Positions 14,192-50,261 of a stretch of 64,000 nt of DNA are shown here, piece after piece. The stretch spans positions 3,514,629 through 3,578,628 of the forward strand of contig NC_089320.1 of the NCBI RefSeq assembly GCF_036669915.1, written 5' to 3'. Within the stretch, counting starts at the first letter, position 1. Each line of letters opens with the position of its first letter. The position numbers were made by a program, and so were the translations under genes. The notes beneath the pieces are model-generated. The model was not told the DNA's origin and searched no databases. It was given only the letters and a program-made list of their open reading frames with translations. Origin of the DNA: Pocillopora verrucosa (Eukaryota > Cnidaria > Anthozoa > Scleractinia > Pocilloporidae).

Positions 14192-15276
14192 AGCCAGTCC
14201 CACCTCGCCATTGCCCTGTTTGGGTGACTGTTTAATACAAGTTTGACTGTAGTTATCCACTTCACAGTGAAGGTCCTTTGTTATATTGTTGATATGATTA
14301 GCAACTGTGGATTAACATTTGATCATTTTGGTTTTATATGAACTTAACTGATAAATAAAATGTAAATTTGCTGTCAGAAAGAGTTTCTAAAGTGCAGAAG
14401 GTGTAAGCTTCCAAGGAGTGGAGGTTTTTCTCAGAAGAAATTTTAAACCAGGACGGATGCTGGCTCCAATTTTGTTTCCTCTTTTGTGTAGACCAGACCT
14501 TTCACCTTTCAATGTTGTACAGAGAATAATAAGCTTTAATTTCTCTCTTTACCATGTGCCTCAGAATTCCCTTGCTGGAAGACAGCAACGACAACAGAGA
14601 GTCTACAACATGATGAAAGACCTTCAGCAGAAGCATTTAGTCAATATTATACAAGGCAAAATAACCGATCAGGAAAATTCTGATCTGTCTGAGTCGCAGA
14701 GCATCTGCCGTATTTGCCATTCTTCAGGGAAGAACCCCTCATAACTCCATGCTACTGTTCAGTCTCACAAAACATGTGCATGCATCATGTCTGTTGACAT
14801 GGTTTAAAAAAGAAGTGAAGAACACCTGTGAATTGTGCCGGCATAAAGTGGATATCAATAAAAAGTGAAAGCCGTATGCTGAGGTAATTTTTGATTTCAA
14901 GCCTTTTGCTGTCGAGGCTATCAATACTGCCAATCTTTATTTTACCATCCTTAACATTTTTGTTTTTCATTGTCAGAATCATCATCCTTTTAGTTGCTAT
15001 CATCATCATTACTGCCATTATCATCGTCTTCATCATCGTCACCACCATTGTTATCTTTGCTATACCCCTCCCCCCTTGCTCTTCTACTCTTTCCTCCCCT
15101 TCCCAGTACTCTTTGAACTGTTGTTCTTCTCTTTTCCTATATGCTTGTTTGGAAATAGAGCAAACAACGGAGCTTGATAGAATTAGGATTTTCTTTCTTT
15201 ACTGAATAAAATAGGGGAAGCATGACAGTGAGCCACTAACACTATTGAATTTCTTTAAAACCAAACTTAGAGCCAT

Positions 15277-15916
15277 ATCCTCATACTCTTTCTAAACCCA
15301 ATTTGTTTGGCGCGAGAGTATCCTCATACTCTTTCTAAACCCAATTTGTTTGGTGCGAGAGTATCCTCATACTCTTTCTAAACCCAATTTGTTTGGCGCG
15401 AGAGTATCCTCATACTCTTTCTAAACCCAATTTGTTTGGCACGAGAGTATCCTCATACTCTTTCTAATTCCAATTTGTTTGGCATGAGAGTATCCTCATA
15501 CTCTTTCTAAACCCAATTTGTTTGGCATGAGAGTATCCTCAGACTCTTTCTAAACCCAATTTGTTTGGCGCAAGAGTATCCTCATACTCTTTCTAAACCC
15601 AATTTGTTTGGCATGAGAGTATCCTCATACTCTTTCTAAACCCAATTTGTTTGGCACGAGAGTATCCTCATACTCTTTCTAAACCCAATTTGTTTGGCAC
15701 GAGAGTATCCTCATACTCTTTCTAAACCCAATTTGTTTGGCGCGAGAGTATCCTCATACTCTTTCTAAACCCAATTGTTTGGCGCGAGAGTATCCTCATA
15801 CTCTTTCTAAACCCATTTGTTTGGCGCGAGAGTATCCTCATACTCTTTCTAAACCCAATTTGTTTGGCGCGAGAGTATCCTCATACTCTTTCTAAACCCA
15901 ATTTGTGTGGCACAAG
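15277..15916. repeat. 43-bp minisatellite, about 15 copies
   Basis: Head-to-tail unit beginning ATCCTCATACTCTTTCTAAA and ending TTTGGCGCGAGAGT. Copies differ mainly at the GCGCGAG position (GCGCG, GCACG, GCATG, GCGCA), with a one- or two-base loss in two units near 15775 and 15815. It lies in the RING-CH intron; a short (ATC)n-rich stretch precedes it at about 14975-15055. Confidence 0.95.
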
Positions 15917-16155: not shown

Positions 16156-17077
16156 AAGCCTCAGAAAACAGTTGTTGCTGATATATGCACTGTCTAGTCC
16201 AAAGTAATTTAGCATTTTCACTTCTAGTTCCATTGTTTCAAGGCTAACTTTGGTTTCTCTTCTTAACCTTAGTGGCGCAGACCAGAAGATAAGCCAACAC
16301 CAATAATCTGGTTCACTGTATTTGTTGTGGGACTTTTCCTGAATGTGTTCTCCATATCTGTGAGTGCTTCTGAACTTTGCACTTCAACAGCTTGTGTGAT
16401 ATTCTACGTAGTGAATGGATTTGGGATCATTCTTGATGCTGCTCTTCTTTACTGCTGGTGGACAAAATGTCTTTTTATTGGCGGAAATGGTGCGCACTTA
16501 ATCAGGAGTGGTCTATTGTGGTCGGTAATGGGCAGACTGCTCCACAGCGATGCAGCCGGGAGAAAGAATCAGTGGAAGGACTATACAAATTCCTCATATA
16601 GTTTGAACTGCAGTCCTTTTGTGCACAAGTTGCTTTGCTAATAACCAGTTCACCAACATCTTAGGTTGCTTCAACTCTTCAGTTGATTAGAAGTTGATCA
16701 GGTTCTGTCAATGAAATTGTCAAACATTTTGTAATATGTTAGCAAAACGACTGATGGACTTAAGCAAAGTTCCCTTTGATGTTGGTGCAACAACCTTAGA
16801 TGTTAGGGAACTGGTTGTTAAAAAAAAAATTGTAGGTGAAACAACCAGTTACCCAATGTAAAACTGCAACTACTTCTTAGAAATGGGTATGAAAGCCCTG
16901 TTATTCAAATTAATATAGTTAATTAATATATTGTATTATAGGTATTAAGTTTGAAAGTCGTGAAAATTGTAAGTGACAGATTCACATGTACATGTACACG
17001 GTATTGAATATTTGTTAACTTGTAAGAGAAACTTGATTAAAATAGGGTCAAGCAATTTTCAATTGTGTGTTAACTTA

Positions 17078-18158: not shown

Positions 18159-18303
18159 AGAGTATAGCAGGTAATTTAGTGTTAACAACTGAGTTGAAAA
18201 CGTAAATTAGCCACCGTAAGGGCTAACGCTCGAAACGTCAGCTTTTTTACCCTTTACGGTGGCTAATTTACGTTTTCAAATCAGTTGTTAACACTAAATT
18301 ATC
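18121..18303. repeat. Palindromic MITE (GTAATTTAGTGTTAACAACTGA arms)
   Basis: Left arm from 18171 (AATTTAGTGTTAACAACTGA...AACGTAAATTAGCCACCGTA) is mirrored by TACGGTGGCTAATTTACGTT...GTTAACACTAAATT ending at 18300. The interior carries GCTAACGCTCGAAACGTCAGC. The same element is at 46220-46456 and a diverged relative at about 25301-25445. It lies just past the NLR 3' end. Confidence 0.85.
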
Positions 18304-18410: not shown

Positions 18411-18690
18411 TCACAACTTCATTGTCGCTGAGCTGGTTACCTCACATCTTGAATTGTAAATGGATAAGATAATCTTTTTTCCAGTTTTAACAATTATTTG
18501 TGAATTAGCGATGCTATATAAAAGGCGACAGTTAGACTGACTATTGTTAATTAAATTCTCTGCGTGTCGTCTACCTGCCTCTGTGATGTCATGATTAAAT
18601 GTGAGGTATAACGTGAGTAGCTGACAGTTTTTGTTGTTGATAGCTTCAGCCAAGTGCTGTGCTCCAGTGTCTGAGATGTTATTTTTCTGA
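18411..18690 (-). pseudogene. Continuation of NLR LRR region in another frame
   Basis: Past the NLR stop the LRR pattern resumes at once in a frame shifted by one: NNISDTGAQHLAEAINNKNC, then LYLTFNHDITEAGRRHAENL, and a weaker tail to a stop at 18411. The shift sits in the run TTTTT at 18682-18686 (plus strand); four T would keep the frame and add about 90 residues. Either a real truncation of the LRR tail or a homopolymer error. Confidence 0.8.
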
Positions 18691-21600
18691 GAGGATTAAC
18701 GTGCGTAGCTGACAGTTTTTGTTGTTGATGGCTTCGGCCAAGTGCTGTGCTCCAATGTCTGAAATGTTATTTGTTGCGAGGTCTAACGTGCGTAGCTGAC
18801 AGTTTTTGTTGTTGATGGCTTTAGCCAAGTGCTGTACTCCAATGTCGGAGATGTTATTTCTTGGAAGGTATAACGTGCGTAGCTGACAGTTGTCGTTGAT
18901 GATGGCTTCAGCCAGGTGCTGAGCTCCAGTGGCTGTGATGTTATTATTTGACAGAAGTATCGCGCGTAGCTGACAGTTGTTGTTGAGGGCTTTAGCTAAG
19001 AGCTGCGCTCCAATATCTGAGATGTTATTTCCCCAGAGACCTAACGTGCTAAGCTGGCAGTTGTTGTTGTTGATGGCTTCAGCTAAATACTTTGCTCCTT
19101 CGTCTGTCAATTGATTTGCTGCGAGGTTTAACCAGCTCAGTTGAGCTTTACTACATTTTAACAACTTACAAATCTCAAAACAACCTAACGGACCAAAGTT
19201 ATTGCAATCCAATTCTAAATGTGAAATTTGTTGAACATTCTTAATTACAGTAACTAATGAAGCACCATCAACAGGTGTGAGTTGACAAAAATTAAACTTT
19301 ACAAAATTAAAGTTAATTTGTTGTAGTTTTCTCTGAACTATTTCCTCCATCTTACTACTTTCGTTAGCACATTTAAATAATGTCACTGCTAAACGGTTTT
19401 TATCTTTAGTCGGCCAACAAGTTACTTTCCTTCCCCTCGTTTCCTCTGTCCACTCTTCGTGGCTTTCTATCACTTCAGTTTCCACAGGAAGAAGGTCTGT
19501 GATGATTTCGCTAGGTAGTTTTTCTTTCTCGTTCATTAGTCCTGCTAGAAACTGAAAAACCAGCTGCCATTTGCCGTCCTCTATGTTCATAGAAACAAAG
19601 TTCCTTAATTCTGTTTCACTCATGTTTGCCAGGTGCCTTGCAGCGAAAAACTCCTGCACTGTTAAATGAATGAAACAGAATTGTTGTTCACGTTTTAACG
19701 GGGCAGTTTCACGGTCGGGTAAGCGGTGAAAGAGAGCGCTACCTTCCATTCCGCGTACTTCGTTTCCTCCAAAGATTAGCTTTCCATCTCTAATTCCTTC
19801 AAATGCCATTTTTTCCAGTTTCTCGAACTTCTTTTCAACGTCAAGGGGCAAATCGTCCGATTCAAAGTCTTCACGAGTGAAATCTTCGTCGCGGAATTCT
19901 TCGTTGTGTCTTAAGTAAAAGATTTTCACTGCTTTCTTGTAAATATCTGTTAATTTCGTTGGTAGGTTTAGACTCTTAGAACCATAGAACTTCACCATTT
20001 GAAAGAGAGTTGAGCAAATGATGAAGCAACTCGCAGGAACGTAGCATAGAGAGAGAACGTTCATGTTACCGCGAACGTGTCGCCATAATGTTTCGCCCGC
20101 ATACTTGTCCTCTTCAGCAAATTTGGTTACGTACTCTTCGACTTGTTCGGATGAGAAGCCGAGGATCTCAAAGACTTTGTCGAAAGAAAGACGTTCGATG
20201 CATGACAAAGCCGTAGGTCTTGTGGTTGTCAAAACGGCAGCTCCGTTGAGAAGTTTCCCAGTCGCAAGCTTCTCGTAAAGACCGTGAAGGGGCATCTTCT
20301 CGTCAACGCGGTTTCTGAATTGAGGCTTGAAGTTTTCCTTCCTGATCTTTGAGTTGTGTTTGAATTCATCGATTCCATCGAAAATAAGGAGAACTCTTTG
20401 GGGGTTCTCAAGGATGTAATTCCAGACTTCATCATCCATGTGATCTGAGGGGGAATGTTCTGACAATGTGAGCAGTTCCCTGAGGCTAAGGTCGGTTGCC
20501 GCGTTGAATGCTCTGAATTTGATTAAGAAAGTAGCATCAAAATGGATTTTGGCATCAGGTGTTTTAAGGAATACTTTGTTAAATGCCCAGTCTCTTAAAA
20601 TTTTGGAACAGCAAAGTGTCTTTCCGATTCCGGGACGACCAACAATCAACACTTTTCTGTCTTCGTTGTTGATAATGTCCTCCAGCCCTCTAGGTGTTAT
20701 GTTTTTCTCACCCGATCTGGCGTAGACTGCCAGTTTCTCCCATCTGTCTCCAGAAAAGTCATATTCGGCTCTGTCTGGAACAACGACAAGTTTTGTGTAA
20801 ATCTGATCTAGAGTCAAATGTTTAGCTGGGCGTCCTTCGCCGGGAGTACTTGAAAAAGGCGACCGGAGTTGGGGAGGCTGATTTGTCTCGTCTTTAATAA
20901 TTTTTTTTGTATTCTCGATGAATTCCTGAAGCGGTGGTTTTTGGAGTTGTTCAGGCTCGCTTGGCAGACGTGGAATGTTCGTTTCATGGTCTCTACTTTC
21001 CTCTACCTGGTGAAGTTCTTGTGGGACGTTCGTTCCTTCTTCTTTTCTTTCTTCTCGCTGCTTAGGTTCTTGTGGGAAGTCTCTTTCATGCTCCGTTCTT
21101 TCTATTTGCTGCTGAGGTTTTGGTTTTAACTCTGTCGAGGTGATAGCATTTTGCGAGTTGCCATGGGAGGGTTTCAGGTGAGCTTTTAGAAAGTTAGAAT
21201 TTTTCATAAAACTATTTTCTTTCCACGCACGTAGAAATAAATAGACGGTTTCCATCAGAATACCAAATAGAAAAATTCCGTTCACGATAAGGACAGCGCG
21301 CATCCAAGAGCTTTTCTTAGTCGCTCGTTGATTATGACACTCGTATGGGGAGTTTTGCATGACGCCAGTAGAATTCCTTGGCTGGTTCTCGCCAGAGGTT
21401 GGATAACAAGAAAAGCTGGAGGGAAAGTCCAGAGGATAAAGAACCTGAGTTTGTAGGACCATAAAGAGAACTCCTAAAACAACCCTCGTGAAAAGTTGAC
21501 AGCAGTAAGCGATAAACAGCTTTCTTCCAGCCTTCTCGTGGTCGGGCGACTGTCTCTCGAGATCACCGTTACGAGCGCTTAGCGACAGTTGATCGACTGT

Positions 21601-21909
21601 GGGGCCCACTATTCGGGAGTAAATAGCACAAACAGTTCCAATGAGGAAAAAGTTCATGATTACGAAGCCATAGGTAGGAAGAGCGTGTCTATTATACTGC
21701 TTCTCGTATAACTCGAAACATTTTCCACGGACTAGGTCGATGTTTTCACTCTTCGCCACGCCACAGCGGAAATCATACCTGGATTCGCCGTTTTCTGCGT
21801 CTGCAAAAATGCCAAGAAAGATTACACCGATCAGGATCCAAATAACAACTGCGGCATGGCTAACTTTGTTAAATGTTTTTGGTGCAATTAATTCCTTGAG
21901 ATTATCCAT
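18679..21909 (-). CDS. NLR receptor: four-pass channel-like N-terminus, NACHT, LRRs
   Basis: Single-exon frame of 1,076 aa. The start chosen is the ATG at 21909 (MDNLKEL); an in-frame GTG lies seven codons upstream. Four hydrophobic helices lie near residues 17-36, 79-99, 133-153 and 204-227. Loop 1 holds DFRC (C49) and C64, loop 2 holds C168 and C191 and an N-glycosylation site (NST, about 179). The C-x-NQRATKKS...ETVYLFLR end resembles connexin loop 2/TM4 by eye. A Glu/Pro/Gln-rich linker (about 240-365) leads to IYTKLVVV...AEYDFSGDRWE, usual before cnidarian NACHT domains. Walker A GRPGIGKT at 424-431; Walker B LLIFDGIDE at about 507-515; TTTRPTA sensor. LRRs of about 28 aa (LxLxxNNISDIGAQHLAEAI) fill the last ~200 residues. 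NLRs are cytosolic immune sensors that oligomerise on nucleotide exchange; membrane anchoring here is inferred. The frame stops inside an LRR at 18679-18681 (see tail entry). Confidence 0.93.
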   Translation of the reverse strand: MDNLKELIAPKTFNKVSHAAVVIWILIGVIFLGIFADAENGESRYDFRCGVAKSENIDLVRGKCFELYEKQYNRHALPTYGFVIMNFFLIGTVCAIYSRIVGPTVDQLSLSARNGDLERQSPDHEKAGRKLFIAYCCQLFTRVVLGVLFMVLQTQVLYPLDFPSSFSCYPTSGENQPRNSTGVMQNSPYECHNQRATKKSSWMRAVLIVNGIFLFGILMETVYLFLRAWKENSFMKNSNFLKAHLKPSHGNSQNAITSTELKPKPQQQIERTEHERDFPQEPKQREERKEEGTNVPQELHQVEESRDHETNIPRLPSEPEQLQKPPLQEFIENTKKIIKDETNQPPQLRSPFSSTPGEGRPAKHLTLDQIYTKLVVVPDRAEYDFSGDRWEKLAVYARSGEKNITPRGLEDIINNEDRKVLIVGRPGIGKTLCCSKILRDWAFNKVFLKTPDAKIHFDATFLIKFRAFNAATDLSLRELLTLSEHSPSDHMDDEVWNYILENPQRVLLIFDGIDEFKHNSKIRKENFKPQFRNRVDEKMPLHGLYEKLATGKLLNGAAVLTTTRPTALSCIERLSFDKVFEILGFSSEQVEEYVTKFAEEDKYAGETLWRHVRGNMNVLSLCYVPASCFIICSTLFQMVKFYGSKSLNLPTKLTDIYKKAVKIFYLRHNEEFRDEDFTREDFESDDLPLDVEKKFEKLEKMAFEGIRDGKLIFGGNEVRGMEGSALFHRLPDRETAPLKREQQFCFIHLTVQEFFAARHLANMSETELRNFVSMNIEDGKWQLVFQFLAGLMNEKEKLPSEIITDLLPVETEVIESHEEWTEETRGRKVTCWPTKDKNRLAVTLFKCANESSKMEEIVQRKLQQINFNFVKFNFCQLTPVDGASLVTVIKNVQQISHLELDCNNFGPLGCFEICKLLKCSKAQLSWLNLAANQLTDEGAKYLAEAINNNNCQLSTLGLWGNNISDIGAQLLAKALNNNCQLRAILLSNNNITATGAQHLAEAIINDNCQLRTLYLPRNNISDIGVQHLAKAINNKNCQLRTLDLATNNISDIGAQHLAEAINNKNCQLRTLILSEK

Positions 21910-25751: not shown

Positions 25752-26560
25752 TTTTGCAAATTTATAGTTCAAACAAGAGCCGGTAAGTTTGTTTGTAAAG
25801 TCTGCGGTTAAAAATACATTAACCTTCATTACCCGAATAGTCTTTCTGTTTTTCGTTTGCGATCTAAAAATTAGCCATCTTTTCTATATTCTATTTACTA
25901 ACACAAACCTTTCAAAACTGTTGATCCTAGCAGTATGCTGGACACTTGTTACATAGAAACCTACAAATGGCCTCGCAAGGGTCTCTGTGAATCAGAATAG
26001 AGCCACAGAACGAAGGTCTGAAGTTCGATCTCTCAGGGGGGACTTTGAATTTATTTTCTTCACTCCTGTTGCTTTCTTGTGCAATCTGTTTTAGTTCAGA
26101 CGATGCATCCTCTCGTTTTCGCGGTTTCTGAATTGAAGCTTGAAATTTTCCTTCCTGATCTTTGAGTTGAGGTTATTTGTCACAAAAACTCGTTCAGGAT
26201 ATTGTTCAGCAGATTGTGTGATTCGACAGAATTTTGCAATTTATAGTTCACACAAGAATCGGCAAGTTTATTTGTTAAGTCTGTGGTTAAAAATACATAA
26301 ACTTTAATTACCCGAAAAGTATTTCTGTTCTTTATTTTCGATCTCAACTTTAGCCATCTTTTCTATATTATATTTACTCACACGAACCTTTTAAAACTGT
26401 TGATCCTAGCAGTATGCAGGACGCATACCGATGAACCTAAAAATGGTTTCGCTCAAGGATCTCTGTGAATCAGAGGAATTTTTCAGGAGGGACTTTGAAT
26501 ATGTTTTCTTCACGCTTGTTGTTTTCCTGTTCAATTCGTTTTCCTTCAGACGAGTGGGAG
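25752..26560 (+). repeat. Diverged direct duplication around an NLR scrap
   Basis: 25752-26100 and 26230-26552 align as direct copies about 480 bp apart (shared GCCATCTTTTCTATATT, AAAACTGTTGATCCTAGCAG TATGC, TCTCTGTGAATCAGA, GACTTTGAAT). Between them, about 26103-26170, lies sequence nearly identical to the NLR coding region at about 20293-20352. Divergence suggests an old duplication. Confidence 0.75.
26103..26170 (-). pseudogene. Fragment of NLR NACHT coding sequence
   Basis: CGCGGTTTCTGAATTGA and TTTTCCTTCCTGATCTTTGA match the NLR gene (about 20309-20352) in the same orientation with a few mismatches. The source codes for residues just after Walker B (KENFKPQFRNRVDE). Too short to be functional; a remnant of another NLR copy. 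Confidence 0.75.
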
Positions 26561-27965: not shown

Positions 27966-29039
27966 TTATTTTGTACGGGCAGCAAACTTCAAAGGGTCCA
28001 GGGTTGAGTGTTTAATCTTCAGTGCACGGGGCGGAATTAGTGTTGAGATGTTTTGAAGTTGAGTTGGTGGCCGGGATGCCTCAGTTTTAATAGGAGCGCT
28101 ATTAAACCCAGGCACTGTCATCCTCAGGAAACAAGCTCCTCGTAAGATCTCTGCTTGCTCATGTTTTGGCAAGTCTTTCACGAGCTTAACTGTCTTCTGC
28201 CAGCGATTGAACTCTCGGGTTAAGGAAGGCCTCTCTCCTGCTACAGTAGCTCGGCGTTGTCTTCTTTGGATTGGAACAACGGCCTTCCGTCCCTCGTCGG
28301 GTGCTGCTTCGCAATCATCTTTCGGGACACTTTCGGATTCCTTTCGCTTGCAGCCCTCCAGCACAATATCTTCTAATTTAGGAGCAAGGTACTGCGAGAC
28401 TTTTCGCTTTAGAAGGGCATTATTGCAACTCTTTAAATTTTCTTTGACTTCTTTTAAATCCCAGGCGTTGAATCTTCTTGAGGCGTCCTCCGATTCTGCG
28501 TCTTCCCCCACAAACATCAAGCTAGGAATTGGGGTCACAACGTCCGATACACTGCGACGGTACTTTGGCTCGGACTTTTGGGCTGAAGCGATCCTGGGAA
28601 CATAATTTGGTCGACTGCTAATACTTGGAGCTTTACTTTCAACTAGAGCATGGTCTTGCCCGGTAGACTTTGGTGTCAGGAGAAGGCACTTTTCTGACAA
28701 ACTTCCACGAGATTTGGGCATGGAAGTTGTGCAATCGGCGTTCAGTTCAGCTCTATCCAGAAAATATGGACTCATGCTTTGCTTTGGTTTCTCAGCCAAC
28801 CTTGGTAAGGGGCAAGCACCATTTTGACTGACTTTGGGAGGTGGTCGGCATTGTTCGCCATTTTTCGCATCATAGTACTTTGCGATGTACAAGTGCTGGA
28901 GGGCAAAGCTTGACATTTTGGCAGCTGATTCGCGAAGAATCTTCTTTTTCATTTTTTCGATCTCGTCCAGCCTTTTGGACAGCGACTTCTCCTCGCACGG
29001 GTTTTTGCTTAAAAGAGCGATAGACAAATAACTCTTCAT
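27966..29039 (-). CDS. Unrecognised 357-aa single-exon protein
   Basis: One uninterrupted frame from ATG at 29039 (MKSYLSIALLSKNPCEEKSL). No family recognised. A helical, charged N-terminus (SLSKRLDEIEKMKKKILRES) could form a short coiled coil. Most of the rest is rich in Ser, Pro, Lys and Glu and looks disordered, with basic clusters (QRRQRRATVAGERPSLTREF) and a hydrophobic patch near the end (AEILRGACFLRMTVPGF). No signal peptide or membrane segment, so cytosolic or nuclear is likely. The reverse strand carries only a shorter frame, and base composition is clearly more GC-rich than the flanks, which supports real coding. Neighbours give no functional hint. Confidence 0.68.
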   Translation of the reverse strand: MKSYLSIALLSKNPCEEKSLSKRLDEIEKMKKKILRESAAKMSSFALQHLYIAKYYDAKNGEQCRPPPKVSQNGACPLPRLAEKPKQSMSPYFLDRAELNADCTTSMPKSRGSLSEKCLLLTPKSTGQDHALVESKAPSISSRPNYVPRIASAQKSEPKYRRSVSDVVTPIPSLMFVGEDAESEDASRRFNAWDLKEVKENLKSCNNALLKRKVSQYLAPKLEDIVLEGCKRKESESVPKDDCEAAPDEGRKAVVPIQRRQRRATVAGERPSLTREFNRWQKTVKLVKDLPKHEQAEILRGACFLRMTVPGFNSAPIKTEASRPPTQLQNISTLIPPRALKIKHSTLDPLKFAARTK

Positions 29040-29289
29040 TCTATCGCCTTGTGTCCGTCTTCAGTTCTGTGTCAGTTGGTGCTGGCTCTGTTCCTCTCGC
29101 TGTAACTTCTCCGGTACAGGAGCGGAAAATTTAAACTCATTAGTTAATTAAGTAACATGTAGTTGTTTGAGCAAAGGCTCAGCATTTCAATAAACGGGGT
29201 TGTTTATTTACTTTGACCAGGCTTACATTAATTCTTGTTTGCACAACATCTTTTTGCTCCTTCCGAAAATTGTAAACATGCATGCGCTT

Positions 29290-35227: not shown

Positions 35228-36971
35228 TAATCAAAAATATTTCCAGAAAAGATTAGATTGTAATACAAAACAAGTCGACACCAGCTTATCTATTAAGTTA
35301 GTCATTAACCAAACCAGAAACTAATCGTAAAATTACTACAATTAAATAAGGTGTCCTATGCGTATAAACCTAAAGGTGAATCTCGATGAAGCTTGTGCAT
35401 TTTGTGCACTTGCATATTTAATAAAAGGCAGTCCATGACTATATTGTATAGTTTTAGAGAATAACAGGAAAAAAAAATTAACTAAACCCGAAAAAACCAA
35501 ACATGAATCCGGAAGGACCCAATCATATTCGTTAAACGATGGCCAGTGTCGGAACTGAACTAGGATGAGTCGTAAGAGATCACGGTTACGAGTGTCTCAC
35601 GATAGTCCGTCATTTTGAAAACCGTGAGGGGCTTGGGGAAGGTTTAACAAGACTTACACGACACCACAGCATAATGCCTACGGCTTTCCTCGAAGGAAAG
35701 CACAGTAGGTACAAAAATGAACACGAGGAAACATTCAATTACATGTTTAAAGCCAACAGTCGACTTATGCAACAAAATGCCTGTTGAAGCCGTTTACTGT
35801 TTAGGCCACGTTAAGCTGCTTGAGAGAGGTTTTAGCTTAAAATTACTATCAGCCTTCTCTCATGACCAGTAGAATAGTGCACTGTCAGATTGTCATCAAG
35901 CAGGTGTGATGCTACAACATAATTAGCGCTAAGCTATATCAAAACATTCAATTTGATACTGAGAGTGTAAATCAAGATACTGAAAGAGAGTTCATGCTCT
36001 ATTAACAATAAATATATAATTTGAACTTGTTTTGCGTTTCTTTCTTTTAAAGAACACTTCAAAAAAAGCAGTATAGTTTTCAAAAAGTGTGGTAAACTAG
36101 TAGGATGATATGCAAATGTCTGCAGACTTGCCTAAAGGTGCTTTCGGTGCTCTTTGTTGCGTCTTGAAATAAATACACAAATTTTATTGAAATTGGGTAA
36201 CATAAATTAGTGGTAACTCAGTAATATACATAATGGCCCTCAAATATTGTAATAAACATATAGGGTTTAAAAGTCTCAACTGGCCGGAGGCAAACCAGTT
36301 GGTCGTGTGTAACTGTTTGCAGAAAGGTTGTCGGAAAAAATAAGGACAAAATGCACTTCAGGCTAGGGTTTTGAAAAGAAATCAGATAATCAGAGAGTTT
36401 TAAAACGTGAAAAAATATATGTAGACAAAAGGGCTAATGAACAGGGGATAAATACCGACAGGACCGTCTGATGCTTATGGAAGACAATAATATAGAATAC
36501 TATCTTGAACATTTTTTTCTTTAGGTCTCTTCGAACTTCGCTCTCGTTGAGTTTTCGTCGTTCGTTGAGGTCAGTTCATTTTTTTTCTCGTTTTTCATAA
36601 AGTTTAGAATCAAAAGTTAAGCTTAGAAACGAAATATATTCAATAAACCCCTTATACCTTTTCCTACAGTGATATTATTTTCAGATTCTCCGGAAATCCT
36701 GCGGTCAAGGGTTACTTTTGACCTTTAAACTACACACAACACCATCAGGGGTTGTCACGAAAGCTTTGTTCCAAAAACCTTTTAGCAATCAATTGTGTAG
36801 AGTGTAGCCAATGTGTTAAACTCGGGGCAATTGAGAACAAATCCAGTAAGTAGCAGGGTGGAGGAATTGAACTCGGGACACCAGATTATATGTCCAGCCC
36901 ATTAACCACTGGGCCATACTGCCTCCACAACTCGCCACTTCCAACTTCCTATGTTTTTAACTTCTGCAGGC
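35228..36971 (+). other. GT31 copy 1 upstream region
   Basis: From 35711 this is part of the segmental duplication shared with 43013-44273. It includes a tRNA-like SINE piece in reverse (36857-36928) and a splice acceptor (AACTTCTGCAG at 36959-36969) directly before the GT31 start, so an upstream non-coding exon is likely. 35228-35710 holds nothing recognisable. Confidence 0.5.
36857..36928 (-). repeat. tRNA-like SINE head
   Basis: Read on the minus strand it has a tRNA-like layout: A-box-like TGGCCCAGTGG and B-box-like CGAGTTCAATTCC. The duplicate at about 44159-44230 carries the same piece. Short head only, no functional tRNA fold claimed. Confidence 0.6.
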
Positions 36972-38057
36972 ATGACCAAGAAAGTTCGTTGGCGGAGACT
37001 TTTTCGATGTGGACTATGCTTTGCAGTAACAGTGGGCCTGATGAATTATTTCATACCCTCTTTAGACCAGGCAGTACAAACAAGTCATCGTCAAATAGAT
37101 CTTAGGAAATATCAAAGCAACTTTCCCATCCTGTCCCCTTCCATTGAACCACGAGTTACCGACTTCGAAGACTTATTCGTTCTGGTGATAGTTTCAACTT
37201 CGCCCAACGATGAGATGAAAAGAAGAGATACAATACGTCGCACATGGGGGAATTGTGACAAAACTAACAACAATAATAAATGGAAGGTTGTATTCATGAT
37301 GGGCAAATCCTCGAGTAGCGACAGGAATGAAAAATTAATGGCAGAACACAAACGGTATGGAGATCTTCTTATAGCTGATTACATCGACAAGTATCGAAAC
37401 ATCACGACAAAACTTCTCATGTCATTTAAGTGGGCGACGCGAATTAGATGTAATTATATTCTGAAAACTGACAGCGATGTTTACGTTGATATTCCTGAGT
37501 TAATGAAATGGTTGCTGAATCGAGGCCATCCAAACTCTCTGTACGCTGGCATTCTGCACGGAGGCACTGTAATAAGAAAGAGGGGGCATCGTCATTACGT
37601 GAGTAAAGACGAATTTTCGTTAGACTATTATCCACCGTTTTGCAAAGGAGCTATGTATGTTCTGTCAACGAGTTTACTTCCAAAGATGCTCGACTTATCA
37701 AGGCAGGTCACTCGAATTGGACCTGATGATGCTTACGTTGGACTGTTAGCAGATCAGCTGGGAATATCTGCAGTGAGAATTGAAGGTTTTTTTCAAAGAA
37801 GGCCTAACTTTTTGTGGTTAATAAGTGAATGTGAGTTGAGAGATCTCCTTGCGATTGGTGATTTTCTTACTCCAAGTCAATTGAACTACATTCATGAAGT
37901 GAAGCATGCTAAGACTTCTGGGCAGGGGTTCGACGCCTCTCACAGTCTTTGTGTATCTCTGTACATGAAATTGTCCCTGCTTCGATTATTCTGTGTAATC
38001 TGTTTACCCAGTCTTTTTTTTTTCGGCTTTAGAAGAAGTAAAACAAGAATTTCATAA
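36972..38057 (+). CDS. GT31 beta-1,3-galactosyltransferase-like, copy 1
   Basis: 361 aa if started at ATG 36972, directly after the splice acceptor; an upstream in-frame ATG (36951) would sit in the intron. Type II Golgi enzyme layout: basic KKVRWRRLFR then a hydrophobic anchor (CGLCFAVTVGLMNYFI). GT31 motifs in order: RRDTIRRTWG, the ADYIDKYRNITTKLL motif, DxD as KTDSDVYVD, YYPPFCKGAMYVLS, and GPDDAYVG in place of the usual EDVYVG. The family transfers galactose or N-acetylhexosamine in beta-1,3 linkage onto glycans; the acceptor here is unknown. Odd: a second hydrophobic segment at the C-terminus (LLRLFCVICLPSLFFFGF) followed by a basic tail. Copy 2 is a near-identical duplicate. Confidence 0.9.
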   Translation: MTKKVRWRRLFRCGLCFAVTVGLMNYFIPSLDQAVQTSHRQIDLRKYQSNFPILSPSIEPRVTDFEDLFVLVIVSTSPNDEMKRRDTIRRTWGNCDKTNNNNKWKVVFMMGKSSSSDRNEKLMAEHKRYGDLLIADYIDKYRNITTKLLMSFKWATRIRCNYILKTDSDVYVDIPELMKWLLNRGHPNSLYAGILHGGTVIRKRGHRHYVSKDEFSLDYYPPFCKGAMYVLSTSLLPKMLDLSRQVTRIGPDDAYVGLLADQLGISAVRIEGFFQRRPNFLWLISECELRDLLAIGDFLTPSQLNYIHEVKHAKTSGQGFDASHSLCVSLYMKLSLLRLFCVICLPSLFFFGFRRSKTRIS

Positions 38058-43012: not shown

Positions 43013-45700
43013 CAAAAATGAGCATGAGAATACATTTGATTACTTGTTTAAAGCCAACAGTTGACTTATGCAACACAATGCCTGTTGAGGGTGTTACTGT
43101 TTCAGCCACTTTAAGCTGCTTGAGAGAGTTTTTAGCTTAAAATTACTATCAGCCTTCTCTCATGACCAGTAGAATAGTGCACTGTCAGATTGTCATCAAG
43201 CAGGTGTGATGCTACAACATAATTAGCGCTAAGCTATATCAAAACATTCAATTTGATACTGAGAGTGTAAATCAAGATACTGAAAGAGAGTTCATGCTCT
43301 ATTAACAATAAATATATAATTTGGACTTGTTTTGCGTTTCTTTCTTTTAAAGAGTACTTCAAAAAAGCAGTATAGTTTTCAAAAAGTGTGGTAAACTAGT
43401 AGGATGATATGCAAATGTCTGCAGACTTGCCTAAAGGTGCCTTCGGTGCTCTTTGTTGCGTCTTGAAATAAATACACAAATTTTATTGAAATTGGGTAAC
43501 ATAAATTAGTGGTAACTCAGTAATATACATAATGGCCCTCAAATATTGTAATAAACATATAGGGTTTAAAAGTCTCAACTGGCCGGAGGCAAACCAGTTG
43601 GTCGTGTGTAACTGTTTGCAGAAAGGTTGTCGGAAAAAATAAGGACAAAATGCACTTCAGGCTAGGGTTTTGAAAAGAAATCAGATAATCAGAGAGTTTT
43701 CAAACGTGAAAAAATATATATAGACAAAAGGGCTAATGAACAGGGGATAAATACCGACAGGACCGTCTGATGCTAATGAGGAAGACAATAATATAGAATA
43801 CTATCTTGAACATTTTTTTCTTTAGGTCTCTTCGAACTTCGCTCTCGTTGAGTTTTCGTCGTTCGTTAAGGTCAGTTCATTTTTTTTTCTCGTTTTTCAT
43901 CAAGTTTAGAATCAAAAGTTAGTCTTACGAACGAAATATATTCAATAAACCCCTTATACCTTTTCCTACAGTGATATTATTTTCAGATTCTCCGGAAATC
44001 CTGCGGTCAAGGGTTACTTTTGACCTTTAAACTACACACAACACCATCAGGGGTTGTCGCGAAAGCTTTGTTCCAAAAACCTTTTAGCAATCAATTGTGT
44101 AGAGTGTAGCCAATGTGTTAAACTCGGGGCAATTGAGAACAAATCAAGTAAGTAGCAGGGTGGAGGAATTGAACTCGGGACACCAGATTATATGTCCAGC
44201 CCACTAACCACTCGGCCATACTGCCTCCACAACTCGCCACTTCCAACTTCCCATGTTTTTAACTTCTGCAGGCATGACCAAGAAAGTTCGTTGGCGGAGA
44301 CTTTTTCGATGTGGACTATGCTTTGCAGTAACAGTGGGCCTGATGAATTATTTCATACCCTCTTTAGACCAGGCAGTACAAACAAGTCATCGTCAAATAG
44401 ATCTTAGGAAATATCAAAGCAACTTTCCCATCCTGTCCCCTTCCATTGAACCACGAGTTACCGACTTCGAAGACTTATTCGTTCTGGTGATAGTTTCAAT
44501 TACGCCCAACGATGAGATGAAAAGAAGAGATACAATACGTCGCACATGGGGGAATTGTGACAAAACTAACAACAATAATAAATGGAAGGTTGTATTCATG
44601 ATGGGCAAATCCTCGAGTAGCGACAGGAATGAAAAATTAATGGCAGAACACAAACGGTATGGAGATCTTCTTATAGCTGATTACATCGACAAGTATCGAA
44701 ACATCACGACAAAACTTCTCATGTCATTTAAGTGGGCGACGCGAATTAAATGTAATTATATTCTGAAAACTGACAGCGATGTTTACGTTGACGTTCCCAA
44801 GTTAATAGAATGGTTGCTGAATCGAGGCCATCCAAACTCTCTGTACGCTGGCATTCTGCACGGAGGCACTGTAATAAGAAAGAGGGGGCATCGTCATTAC
44901 GTGAGTAAAGACGAATTTTCGTTAGACTATTATCCACCGTTTTGCAAAGAGCTATGTATGTTCTGTCAACGAGTTTACTTCCAAAGATGCTCGACTTATC
45001 AAGGCAGGTCACTCGAATTGGACCTGATGATGCTTACGTTGGACTGTTAGCAGATCAGCTGGGAATATCTGCAGTGAGAATTGAAGGTTTTTTTCAAAAA
45101 AGACCTAACTTTTTGTGGTTGATAAGTGAATGTGAGTTGAGAGATCTCCTTGCGATTGGTGATTTTCTTACTCCAAGTCAATTGAACTACATTCATGAAG
45201 TGAAGCATGCTAAGACTTCTGGGCAGGGGTTCGACGCCTCTCACAGTCTTTGTATATCTCTGTACATGAAATTGTCCCTGCTTCGATTATTCTGTGTAAT
45301 CTGTTTAACCTGTCTGGTGATTTTCGGCTATAGAAGATGTACAACGAGGATTTTAAAAGATGAATCGAGAGGCTTTCCACGTCTAATAAGATATATTTAT
45401 TCACCGCAGTGGAGGTGAATAGTGGTGGGTATTTACTAGGCCGTGAAGCGGCAAGGTGAATATCCACCACTTTCACCGACACTGAGGTGAATTATTCTTT
45501 TAGTATATACAACATCGATGCCAAAAATGTAGTTTATTTCTCTCAATACATAGAAAATGGTGGGAAATTAAAGTCTTGACGCGCGATTTTGTTTCTTCGG
45601 CTGCTTGGAGATAAATAGTATTTGCTACTCACTCCCGAACTAGTCAATCAGCGCGCACGAAAAGCACTATTTACCTGTGTGGTAAGTATATTAGAACAGA
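43013..45700 (+). repeat. Segmental duplication, unit A copy 2
   Basis: Second copy of the unit at 35711-38370, with the same tRNA-like piece, acceptor, and GT31 frame. Confidence 0.9.
44274..45418 (+). pseudogene. GT31 copy 2, frameshifted
   Basis: Starts like copy 1 (MTKKVRWRRLFRCGLCF) and is almost identical through the DxD motif (KTDSDVYVDVPKLIEW). At about 44949 copy 1 has GCAAAGGAGC and this copy GCAAAGAGC. The lost G sends the frame to a stop at 45050, removing GAMYVLS, GPDDAYVG and the C-terminal membrane segment. The rest continues in the next frame to 45418, with a tail longer than copy 1 (ILKDESRGFPRLIRYIY). As read it is a pseudogene; a one-base consensus error would make it intact. 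Confidence 0.88.
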
Positions 45701-45789: not shown

Positions 45790-46935
45790 ACCGTGAATTA
45801 CAATCTAATGGTATTGAAATCCGTTGTGCTTATGGCCATTGTCATAATGCATTGCAAACACAACTGCCAACCAAAGAGTATCTCGATAGAGTCACAAGAT
45901 GCCATAACGTTTATTTCTTTAGTTTAAATGTAAATTCAGGTAGCTGTCCAGATTGTAACGCTTCATTTGGAACTATTCGTTGTAAAAATCACTCTTTGTC
46001 TACCTTTGCGCAGTTGATAAGTAGGAATAAGTCGTTTGAATCTTGCCTCTCTTTATTTCACACCAATATACGAAACCTGAGAAAAAACTTAAACAACCTT
46101 CAAAGCCATATCTTTTACGAACTAAATTTCCATTTTAATCTTTTAGCAGTAACGGAAATAAAAATTAAAAAGAGAATCTTGATTTAAATTCAAACATAAC
46201 AAATTATAATATGATAAAGGGGGTAAATTTCTAAAGACACTGTAGTGCTGCGTCGATGGGAGAGTATAGCAGGTAATTTAGTGTTAACAACTGAGTTGAA
46301 AACGTAAATTAGCAACCGTAAAGGGTAAAAAAGCTGACGTTTCGAGCGTTAGCCCTTCGTCAAAGCGATTGGAAGGGCTACACTCGAAACGTCAGCTTTT
46401 TTACCTTTTACAGTGGCTAATTTACGTTTTCAACTCAGTTGTTAACACTAAATTACCTGAAATTACAATATAGAATATGATCCTGCACCTTTTTTCTGTT
46501 GAACGTGTATACAGGAATGTATAAAAACAAAGATATACAATACAAAGTCATTGAAAAAACCTCTAATGAGACTTTTCAAGCATATAGACTTGAAGTTGAA
46601 TTCACTGAAAAAAAGCAATATTATTTGTAGAATTGTCTCTAGGCAGCATAATTTTGCTGACTGCTTCTTAGAATATTTTTAAGAAACTGTCGGTCGATAT
46701 AGTGCCACTAGTCAATCATTCTACCCCTTAGGTGACGTCAACATAAATATTCTGAAGTCAGAGACTTGTAATTAGACTCAACAACTTTTACACTGCTTAC
46801 AAAGCTACCCTATTTTACCAGCAATTGATAAACCGACAAGGGTTTAAAATAACTGCGCCTTACTTGTTGATAATATTTTCTCAAACAAAATCGAAGATTG
46901 TATCGCCAGTAGGAATTGTGACGAGGTTTCTCGCA
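45790..46935 (+). pseudogene. Non-LTR retrotransposon fragment, copy 2 (longer)
   Basis: Homologous to 38882-39429 through SFESCLSLFHTNIRNLRKNL and LNFHFNLLAVTEIKI. Then interrupted by the palindromic MITE (46220-46456), after which endonuclease-domain pieces continue in changing frames: GDVNINILKSE, LPAIDKPTR, DNIFSNKIEDCIASRN. The typical LGDxNI...DKPTR order of EEP-type LINE endonucleases is clear. Many frame breaks; no reverse transcriptase part present. Confidence 0.8.
46220..46456. repeat. Palindromic MITE inserted in the LINE fragment
   Basis: Arms AATTTAGTGTTAACAACTGA...GCTGACGTTTCGAGCGTTAG and the inverse CTCGAAACGTCAGC...GTTAACACTAAATT. LINE sequence on both sides matches across the gap in the other copy, and AATTATAATAT / AATTACAATAT flank it as a likely target duplication. 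Confidence 0.85.
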
Positions 46936-47996: not shown

Positions 47997-49143
47997 AAAT
48001 TCCTTCCTATCGATGCGATGTTGGTGTTAAGTTTGAACAAGTGGCAACGTGAAAAATGATCGTATGATAAGGACCAATTTACGGACGATAGTTCAGCTGG
48101 CAACTTCCTTAAGAAGTAATTTACCAGAAAAGGTCGGTACAAGGAATGTTTACCTAACAATGTTCACTAATAATAAGATCATTAAAGAACCGATGTTCAA
48201 GAATACAAAGGCGGCGAGAACAATGGAATATGTACAAGTTGGTAGTTGTTAGCTTTTACCTTTTTTAGAACATTGCAATAAAAGAAACTCAGATGAATCG
48301 AGAACGGCTAAAATATTGCAGGAAAAAGTAATAAATATGCTCCAAACAAACACACGAAAAAATCACCAAACTTCCCCTAATAGGATATTGCATCAGATCC
48401 CACTGATCATTTTTCTTAATTTTGCGTTGTTCAATCAACCATTGAAACCATCAAACCTCGGGAAAAAAGCAATTCGTGACTATATAAAATTCTATCGACA
48501 AATGTTTTTACAGAAATTGTCGGAACTCACGTGGGAGTCATCACCAGCTGTTAAGGATCCCTCCAAGTTATTTCCACCTTTCACAAAAAGCTGCAGAGGC
48601 TGGTGAACAAGCATGCACCACTTCCAACCCTTGTCAAAGCGCGAAGATAAACAGCTGGAAAAACTGAGGATCACTTCAGGAATTCGAAAAAGCAATATGA
48701 ATAAAAAATGAGCTTTTTTCTCCGGCGACCGGGAAAGATATAAACTTTACAGATATAAAGTGCTTCTGCTATCTCATATTAGTGAAAAGAATAGTAAGTT
48801 TGTTTTTTTTTTTTACAGTAGCTGAAGGCTGGAGAGAGAAAAGAAATTTATACCGAGCGGGTGGGTGACGGTCAAAAAGGAGGAGCGGGGAGGGGTGGAA
48901 CAATAAGCATTCTTCTAACCATTTCCCGCCCTCTCCCCGCACCGTTTACCCTAACCCTCGATCAGAGAAGGCCGGTTGAACAAACGATCATGAGCTTCTG
49001 AGAGTTAACTTGCCCTAATAAGACACCTGCAACGCAGGCTATAATGCCCCTGTCTCTGGGGCCAATTTTTGTTACAAATCTCCCTTAATGGGTCGGCCCC
49101 ACGGGAAGGCCGCCGATACCTGCACGAGGCTTTCAATAGAACC
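47997..49143. other. Intergenic with a third copy of an ELP5-flank repeat
   Basis: 48828-49045 (GGAGAGAGAAAAGAAATTTA TACC...GGGGAGGGGTGGAACAATA...AATAAGACACCTGC.ACGCAGGCT) is a diverged copy of 40620-40750 and 51440-51570. Open frames at 48049-48606 show no family resemblance. Confidence 0.55.
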
Positions 49144-49178
49144 CAACTAACAACAATAATAAATGGAAGGTTGTGTTA
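49144..49178 (+). repeat. Piece of GT31 coding sequence in copy 3's 5' flank
   Basis: AACTAACAACAATAATAAAT GGAAGGTTGT matches the middle of the GT31 coding region (for example 37264-37290) but lies upstream of the copy 3 start, out of order. Confidence 0.8.
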
Positions 49179-49190
49179 TCGAGGCTAGAG

Positions 49191-50261
49191 ATGCTGATGA
49201 AAGTTCGATTTCGGAGGGTCATACGAGTTGGACTGTGCTTTGCAGGGATAGCAGCCCTAATATATTTACTCGTACGCCTCTTCGTACCACCAAGTCATCG
49301 CCGAATAGATCTTAGGAAATATCAAAGCAATTTTCCCATCCTGTCCCCTTCCATTGAACCTCGAGTTACCGACTTCGAAGACTTATTCGTTCTGGTGATA
49401 GTTTCAACTTCACCCGACGACAAGATGAAAAGAAGAGATACGATACGTCGTACTTGGGGTAAATGTGACAAAACTAACAACAATTACAAATGGAAGGTTG
49501 TATTCATGATGGGCAAATCGTTGAATAGCGACATGAATGAAAAATTAATGGCGGAACACAAACAGCATGGAGATCTTCTTATAGCTGATTACATCGACAA
49601 GTATCGAAACATCACGACAAAACTTCTCATGTCATTTAAGTGGGCGACACAAATTAGATGTAACTATATTCTGAAAACTGACAGCGATGTTTACGTTGAC
49701 ATTCCCGAGTTAATAAAATGGATGCTGAATCGAGGCGATCCAAATTCTCTCTACGGTGGTGTTCTGTACAGAGGAATTGTAGTGAGGGATACATCACACC
49801 GTCACTACGTGACTAAAGACGATCTTTCTTTGAACTATTATCCACAGTTTTGTAAAGGCTCTATGTATGTCCTGTCGGCGAGTTTACTTCCAAAAATGCT
49901 CGACTTATCAAGGCAGGTCACTCGAATTGGACCTGATGATGCTTACGTAGGATTGTTAGCAGATCAGCTGGGAATATCTCCAGTGGGAATTGACAGATTT
50001 TTTCAGAAAAGTCTCTTACCGTATATCTTCTGGTTTATGAGTAAATGTGAGTTGAGAGATCTCCTTGGAATTGGTGACTCACTTACTCCAAGTCAATTGA
50101 ACTACATTCATGAAGTGAAGCACGCCTCTTCTGTCTCCTACTATCTTTGTATTTCGTTGCTTGAGAAATTTTTCCTATTTATATTATTTTTAATCATTTT
50201 AATGTGTCTGCCGCTTTTAGGTCGTAGAAGGTTTTCTACAAGGATTTCAAAAGGAAAATGA
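49191..50261 (+). CDS. GT31 beta-1,3-galactosyltransferase-like, copy 3
   Basis: 356 aa from ATG 49191 (MLMKVRFRRVIRVGLCFAGI); a second in-frame ATG lies two codons on. Same type II layout: basic stretch then GLCFAGIAALIYLLVRLF anchor. Motifs: RRDTIRRTWG, ADYIDKYRNITTKLL, KTDSDVYVDIPELIKW, YYPQFCKGSMYVLS, GPDDAYVG. It differs from copies 1 and 2 at the N-terminus and around YGGVLYRGIVVRDTSHRH, so acceptor choice may differ. The C-terminus has a strong hydrophobic helix (FFLFILFLIILMCLPLLG) and basic tail, unusual for this family. It is the parent or sister of the tail fragments at 39430-39812 and lies tail-to-tail with ELP5. Confidence 0.9.
   Translation: MLMKVRFRRVIRVGLCFAGIAALIYLLVRLFVPPSHRRIDLRKYQSNFPILSPSIEPRVTDFEDLFVLVIVSTSPDDKMKRRDTIRRTWGKCDKTNNNYKWKVVFMMGKSLNSDMNEKLMAEHKQHGDLLIADYIDKYRNITTKLLMSFKWATQIRCNYILKTDSDVYVDIPELIKWMLNRGDPNSLYGGVLYRGIVVRDTSHRHYVTKDDLSLNYYPQFCKGSMYVLSASLLPKMLDLSRQVTRIGPDDAYVGLLADQLGISPVGIDRFFQKSLLPYIFWFMSKCELRDLLGIGDSLTPSQLNYIHEVKHASSVSYYLCISLLEKFFLFILFLIILMCLPLLGRRRFSTRISKGK

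Follow-up and report, generated by a model that had tools for sequence, protein, structure and literature searches.

Here we describe a gene in a 64,000-nucleotide stretch of the genome of the coral Pocillopora verrucosa (contig NC_089320.1, positions 3,514,629 to 3,578,628; this whole stretch is the window, and all positions below are counted from its first letter), the product of which combines a connexin-like membrane domain with the body of a NOD-like receptor (NLR). The gene lies on the minus strand in one stop-to-stop frame that runs from 21939 to 18679 (1086 codons). Its first ATG, at 21909, stands in a good context (ACAATGG, with A at -3 and G at +4) and opens 1076 amino acids (aa) followed by a stop codon ending at 18679. 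Within this one open reading frame (ORF), four hydrophobic helices are succeeded by a charged linker, a NACHT domain, a region resembling NLRC4_HD2 and a series of leucine-rich repeats (LRRs) (Table 1). An earlier note on this DNA had given the span 18679-21909, which is right, but had left out the strand; the four hydrophobic helices, two cysteines per loop, glycosylation site in loop 2 and charged linker that it described were all recovered here from hydropathy and sequence.

The linker contains no stop codon; the fusion of the membrane and NACHT parts is therefore what the DNA reads. It is highly improbable that these parts come from two neighbouring genes, or from an assembly join, and do not form one protein. 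A charged and partly repetitive linker could hold a promoter or a splice site, but the 1086-codon frame passes through it unbroken from a well-placed ATG, and both the N-terminal position of the connexin-like part and the cytosolic C-terminus of connexins fit a fusion.

Table 1. Features of the connexin-like NLR gene, in window positions (TM, transmembrane segment).
Feature	Position	Strand	Basis
Entire ORF (1076 aa + stop), from connexin-like membrane domain through linker, NACHT and HD2-like region to LRRs	18679..21909	-	ORF
Connexin-like four-helix domain, aa 1-240	21190..21909	-	hhalign to five connexins covers aa 14-231
Pfam Connexin (PF00029) part, TM3 - loop 2 - TM4, aa 120-225	21235..21552	-	E = 1.2e-6, 29.0 bits, cut-off 31.3
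TM1 peak, aa 18-36	21802..21858	-	hydropathy
Loop 1, predicted to face outward; aa 38-80; C49, C64	21670..21798	-	hydropathy, alignment
TM2 peak, aa 83-101	21607..21663	-	hydropathy
TM3, aa 131-157, overlapping peaks (first 131-149)	21439..21519	-	hydropathy
Loop 2, predicted to face outward; aa 158-203; C168, C191, N179 sequon	21301..21438	-	hydropathy, alignment
TM4, aa 206-229, overlapping peaks (first 206-224)	21223..21294	-	hydropathy
Charged linker (aa 241-395, approximately), containing a 51-bp tandem repeat (21007-21119)	20725..21189	-	sequence, repeat scan
NACHT domain, aa 419-600	20110..20655	-	PF05729 E = 1.9e-30
NLRC4 HD2-like region, aa 748-851	19357..19668	-	PF17776 E = 1.1e-6, 29.6 bits, below cut-off 33.1
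LRRs still in frame, about aa 930-1076; tandem repeat of 87 bp at 18603-19098	18682..19122	-	LRR_6 E = 4e-11
LRR array continuation and C-terminal tail, different frame	18411..18695	-	frame lost in A-run

Connexin similarity of the membrane domain

Profile comparisons indicate that the membrane domain is probably a remote homologue of the connexins, which form the gap junction channels of vertebrates. Searched against Pfam, residues 1-243 matched Connexin (PF00029), with aa 120-225 aligned to profile positions 132-224 of 225; one weak domain of unknown function (DUF) was the sole other Pfam match, and NCBIfam gave none for the same residues. The C-terminal half alone matched PF00029 at E = 6.2e-7 (29.8 bits), and none of 10 shuffles of aa 1-240 that preserved hydropathy class and every cysteine matched Connexin at E <= 10. 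When the domain was searched with phmmer against 177,635 distinct PDB sequences, the matches at E <= 10 numbered three, all of them gap junction proteins and each individually weak (E = 0.074, 0.079 and 0.3).

Five connexin sequences taken from PDB (Cx26, Cx36, Cx46, Cx50 and the C-terminal half of GJC3) were then used for direct comparison. Against this set hhalign returned a match of 183 columns and 22% identity, with a probability of 92.3%, E = 5.6e-7 and a score of 49.3. Among class shuffles, in which the hydropathy class was kept at each position and the cysteines were fixed, 0/60 and then 0/300 reached that score (null maximum 44.7), and for the C-terminal half none of 300 reached the real score either (39.7). 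A small hidden Markov model (HMM) of the same five sequences gave the full domain 24.2 bits, a score not exceeded by any of 1947 block shuffles or 1711 full shuffles (2000 of each were made, the rest going unreported by hmmsearch). In local alignments the real score was reached by 0 of 400 shuffles for GJC3, 6 for Cx46, 10 for Cx36, 14 for Cx50 and 51 for Cx26. GJC3 was the closest of the five connexins tested, although its figure is partly selected, as it was already the best PDB match beforehand.

The comparison sequences from other channels were PANX1, part of INX-6, LRRC8A and CALHM1. Their local alignment scores were reached by 116, 300, 353 and 209 of 400 shuffles, respectively, and against the connexin profile all four scored 11-15; four-helix channel proteins therefore do not match this profile in general. 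Three 240-aa pieces from the rest of the NLR scored 13-18. Compared with the domain itself, PANX1 plus INX-6, PANX1, LRRC8A and CALHM1 gave hhalign probabilities of 0.07-0.49%. With the Pfam match at E = 1.2e-6, no shuffle in 300 reaching the hhalign score and the other channels at noise, the similarity is specific to connexins, and the likeness that the earlier note had picked out by eye has the support of profile methods.

Membership of the pannexins or innexins came into question because each loop has two cysteines and loop 2 a sequon like that of PANX1; it was rejected on the profiles, with no Innexin (PF00876) match at E <= 10 and hhalign probabilities of 0.07-0.16% for PANX1 and the partial INX-6, the innexin comparison consisting of PF00876 and that single partial sequence. 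For the LRRC8 family (no Pannexin_like, PF12534, at E <= 10; LRRC8A probability 0.13%) and the CALHM family (no PF14798 at E <= 10; CALHM1 probability 0.49%) the comparisons were also negative, these Pfam searches all having been run with the HMMER filters on, which may drop weak matches. The profile search of the N-terminal domain that the earlier note had proposed did find a channel family, PF00029, and did not find Innexin, Pannexin_like or CALHM, so that the note's first ground for refutation, the lack of any channel-family match, does not apply as far as profiles go; the fold search described below was without a significant match in either direction.

A number of results weigh against connexin homology or the larger interpretation built on it. 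The PF00029 scores (29.0 bits, and 29.8 for the C-terminal half) lie below the curated cut-off of 31.3, and within the full protein the match falls to E = 4.3e-5 and 23.8 bits. The small HMM was exceeded by one of the 1999 class shuffles reported (maximum 25.9; 2000 made), and a profile without GJC3 scores 33.4, which none of 300 shuffles reached, by a narrow margin (null maximum 32.6). The N-terminal half (TM1 - loop 1 - TM2) is aligned within the full-length hhalign match and is at noise when taken alone: it gives 3.3 bits against a class-shuffle mean of 3.1, has no Pfam connexin match and scores 18 in hhalign, and its global alignment scores were reached by 9 (Cx46), 31 (Cx50), 130 (Cx26) and 223 (Cx36) of 300 shuffles. 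The connexins used have 67 invariant columns, of which 59 could be mapped and 17 are identical in the domain; at the other mapped positions 23/123 are identical to Cx26. A single-sequence AlphaFold model was poor (predicted local distance difference test, pLDDT, 59.4; predicted template modelling score, pTM, 0.41), and Foldseek with that model returned no matches at E <= 0.001. Four long helices and, within loop 2, two strands are present in the model; the list of insignificant Foldseek matches, headed by pannexin-1 (0.18), with Cx40.1 at 1.6 and LRRC8 at 3.3, was given no weight. No second copy of the domain occurs in the window, and of the viral, bacterial and archaeal sequences in which relatives were also sought, viral contigs contained no relative of the N-terminal domain or of the whole protein and bacterial and archaeal genome contigs none of the N-terminal domain.

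These results bear on a competing explanation, in which a generic membrane segment of four helices resembles connexins by chance or convergence. The sub-threshold Pfam score, the N-terminal half, the one shuffle in 1999 and the poor structure model all lean that way, but hydropathy-preserving shuffles did not reproduce the match (0/300 in hhalign, 0/10 in Pfam) and four other four-helix channel proteins stayed at noise against the connexin profile, so that we consider this explanation quite improbable.

Loop cysteines and topology

In the hhalign alignment, C49, C64, C168 and C191 correspond to C53, C64, C169 and C180 of Cx26, that is, to connexin cysteines 1, 3, 4 and 6, while the positions of Cx26 C60 and C174 (cysteines 2 and 5) are replaced. 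Each outer loop thus has two cysteines where connexins have three. In the crystal structure of Cx26 the disulfides are C53-C180, C60-C174 and C64-C169; given this pairing, the replacements would remove one complete disulfide and leave two. Cx23 is described in the available text of one paper as lacking the second cysteine of each loop and still forming hemichannels and junctions (PMC4729916). The cysteine count that the earlier note had likened to innexins and pannexins is better read as that of a connexin without the second cysteine of each loop, as in Cx23. Because the curated Pfam cut-off is not reached and the six-cysteine rule does not hold, the domain is called connexin-like here and is not filed as a connexin.

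The orientation of the four hydrophobic peaks is taken from the connexin layout. Both termini of connexins are cytosolic (available text of PMC4729916), which suits a NACHT-LRR part at the C-terminus. Between its outer cysteines loop 2 is about 12 residues longer than in Cx26, and it carries a sequon at N179. Docking into a gap junction was considered and thought unlikely on account of this longer, potentially glycosylated loop, which weakly favours a lone hemichannel; glycans block docking in pannexins, yet seven innexins with glycosylation sites belong to functional junctions (available text of PMC8769644), and for this reason the argument is weak.

The NACHT-LRR part and the 3' frame break

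The remainder of the protein is that of an NLR: the NACHT domain has both Walker A (GRPGIGKT) and Walker B (LLIFDGIDEF), and C-terminal LRRs follow it (LRR_6, 42.5 bits), the end of the array being out of frame. The NLRC4_HD2-like region between them scores under its own Pfam cut-off, and a fifth hydropathy peak (aa 618-636) lies just past the NACHT match. An A-run at about 18682-18690 breaks the frame. Past it, roughly one further LRR and a tail are encoded in a different frame as far as 18411, and the LRR repeat crosses the break without a gap large enough for an intron. The NACHT with its Walker motifs and the LRRs named in the earlier note are thus present, with the correction that the LRR array is not intact in frame. 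An erroneous base call, an allele or a true truncation may lie behind the break.

Upstream of the gene, on the minus strand at 26034-26168, lies a NACHT-like coding scrap in which 65 bp are 91% identical to the gene and 47 aligned aa are 55% identical to its product, with a stop; it is probably the remnant of a related NLR.

The frame break also counts against a functional receptor, in that it suggests possible decay. A decaying copy, that is, a pseudogene, would account for the loss of frame in the LRRs and would have a parallel in the stop-containing NACHT-like piece upstream. Against this, the 1076 codons are otherwise open, what is lost is the end of the array and the tail alone, and a homopolymer miscall would leave the same picture; we regard decay as unlikely.

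Proposed mechanism

We propose that the gene encodes an NLR-type receptor with a remote connexin homologue as its N-terminal effector, working as a hemichannel that is clustered by NACHT; as a whole, this proposal stands at about even chances. The protein would reside in the plasma membrane or in an intracellular one. Its N-terminus and its NACHT-LRR portion would be cytosolic, and the cysteine loops would lie outside, where two loop-to-loop disulfides would pin them. At rest the LRRs would keep NACHT off. On sensing of a ligand or damage NACHT would bind ATP and oligomerise, as is known of NLRs, and the NACHT ring would gather the membrane domains, or twist an existing hexamer, such that Ca2+, K+ or ATP could pass through the opened hemichannel. 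The earlier note had likewise proposed that oligomerisation could open or assemble a channel; we hold this mechanism to be evenly balanced between right and wrong.

The main competing explanation is that the domain, whether connexin homologue or lookalike, only anchors or clusters the NLR in the membrane and does not conduct. Its large divergence (22% identity) is consistent with such a role, as is the change of 42 of the 59 mapped invariant positions, including the proline in TM2 and a large part of the loop 1 motif. A plain anchor, however, has no need of a folded channel ectodomain, which is what the kept cysteine frame and the connexin-like TM3 - loop 2 - TM4 suggest, and we think a mere anchor somewhat unlikely.

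Comparison with known systems

The proposed arrangement of an NLR with its own hemichannel recalls several known systems. In working plan it resembles the LRRC8 volume-regulated anion channels, in which a four-helix large-pore subunit is followed by cytosolic LRRs; LRRC8 differs in having no NACHT and shows no sequence match. Pannexins and innexins share the two cysteines per loop, and PANX1 the loop 2 sequon, but they have no profile match to the domain. Plant coiled-coil (CC) NLR resistosomes, fungal HeLo NLRs and bacterial membrane-effector Avs/bNACHT proteins are likewise NLR oligomers with a membrane-acting part of their own, although these parts are unrelated to the one described here; to our knowledge, none of the CC-NLR resistosomes, HeLo NLRs or membrane-effector Avs/bNACHT proteins uses a connexin-type domain. 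Direct action of NLRs on membranes is known in plants, fungi and bacteria, and we know of no case in animals that works through a gap-junction-type pore.

With animal NLRs of the NLRC4 type the protein shares NACHT, the HD2-like region and LRRs in their usual order. It shares with connexins the four-helix order, the profile match over TM3 - loop 2 - TM4 and cysteines 1, 3, 4 and 6, and with Cx23 the loss of the second cysteine pair (PMC4729916, available text). The domain differs from connexins in its fusion to linker, NACHT and LRRs, its longer, sequon-bearing loop 2, the change of most mapped invariant residues and its sub-cut-off Pfam score. The N-terminal effectors named for cnidarian NACHT proteins in the available texts are CARD, DEATH, DED, TIR, HEPN or glycosyltransferase domains, whereas here the N-terminus is a membrane domain.

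Distribution and significance

As far as the available texts of two surveys go, tunicates and vertebrates have connexins, and lancelets and the rest of the animals surveyed do not, apart from an unconfirmed transcript of a sea urchin (PMC8769644, PMC6391747); one of the two has connexins arising de novo in early chordates. In PMC6391747, a search with PF00029 and BLAST found connexins universally in vertebrates and tunicates and none in lancelets, and Hydra is listed as without them, again in the available text. The present domain lies just below the curated PF00029 cut-off; a search at that cut-off would therefore miss it.

The word connexin does not occur in the main text of four papers on cnidarian NLRs (PMC10236652, PMC8260672, PMC4083563, PMC12314368); PMC8260672 reports 35 Pfam domains that co-occur with NACHT, and a connexin entry is possible in its supplementary table. 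Searches of the titles and abstract openings of open-licence papers gave no connexin-NLR among the matches listed, nor any paper joining connexin, NACHT and cnidarian. Within that literature this agrees with the earlier note, the author of which knew of no described connexin-NACHT-LRR protein.

If real and expressed, the protein would mean that an immune receptor of an animal carries a channel subunit within itself, and it would be an animal NLR that could act directly on membranes. The connexin family would also gain an outgroup from such a domain in an NLR of an invertebrate. Tentatively, and with more doubt than confidence, we suggest that early animals already had a connexin-type hemichannel, against a de novo origin of connexins in chordates, and that this hemichannel survives outside the chordates as an NLR effector, the pore of which is opened by a NACHT ring, sensor and channel being one protein.

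Surroundings in the window

Just 3' of the gene, at 18169-18300, lies an inverted-repeat element with arms 81% alike, which is perhaps a small mobile element. Copies of one of its arms, 87 bp long and 93-97% alike, lie at 46271-46458, and a 20-bp core of that arm occurs three times with up to 2 mismatches. Farther on, a 43-base unit makes up a tandem array at 15276-15911 (14.8 copies, 96% matches).

On the plus strand, a frame with SICRICHSSG at 14391-14741 and a later hydrophobic, exon-like frame at 16273-16638 had best Pfam matches of E = 0.16 and 0.032, both under cut-off; we take the two to be reminiscent of a RING-CH (MARCH-type) membrane protein. Upstream of the NLR, a 364-aa open frame on the minus strand at 27969-29060 had a best Pfam match of E = 0.0046, also under cut-off. 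Rfam and tRNA scans of the window found nothing. The plus strand further carries three tandem Galactosyl_T (PF01762) genes in long single frames (36906-38054, 44208-45415 and 49140-50258), the middle one of which changes frame at about 44950.

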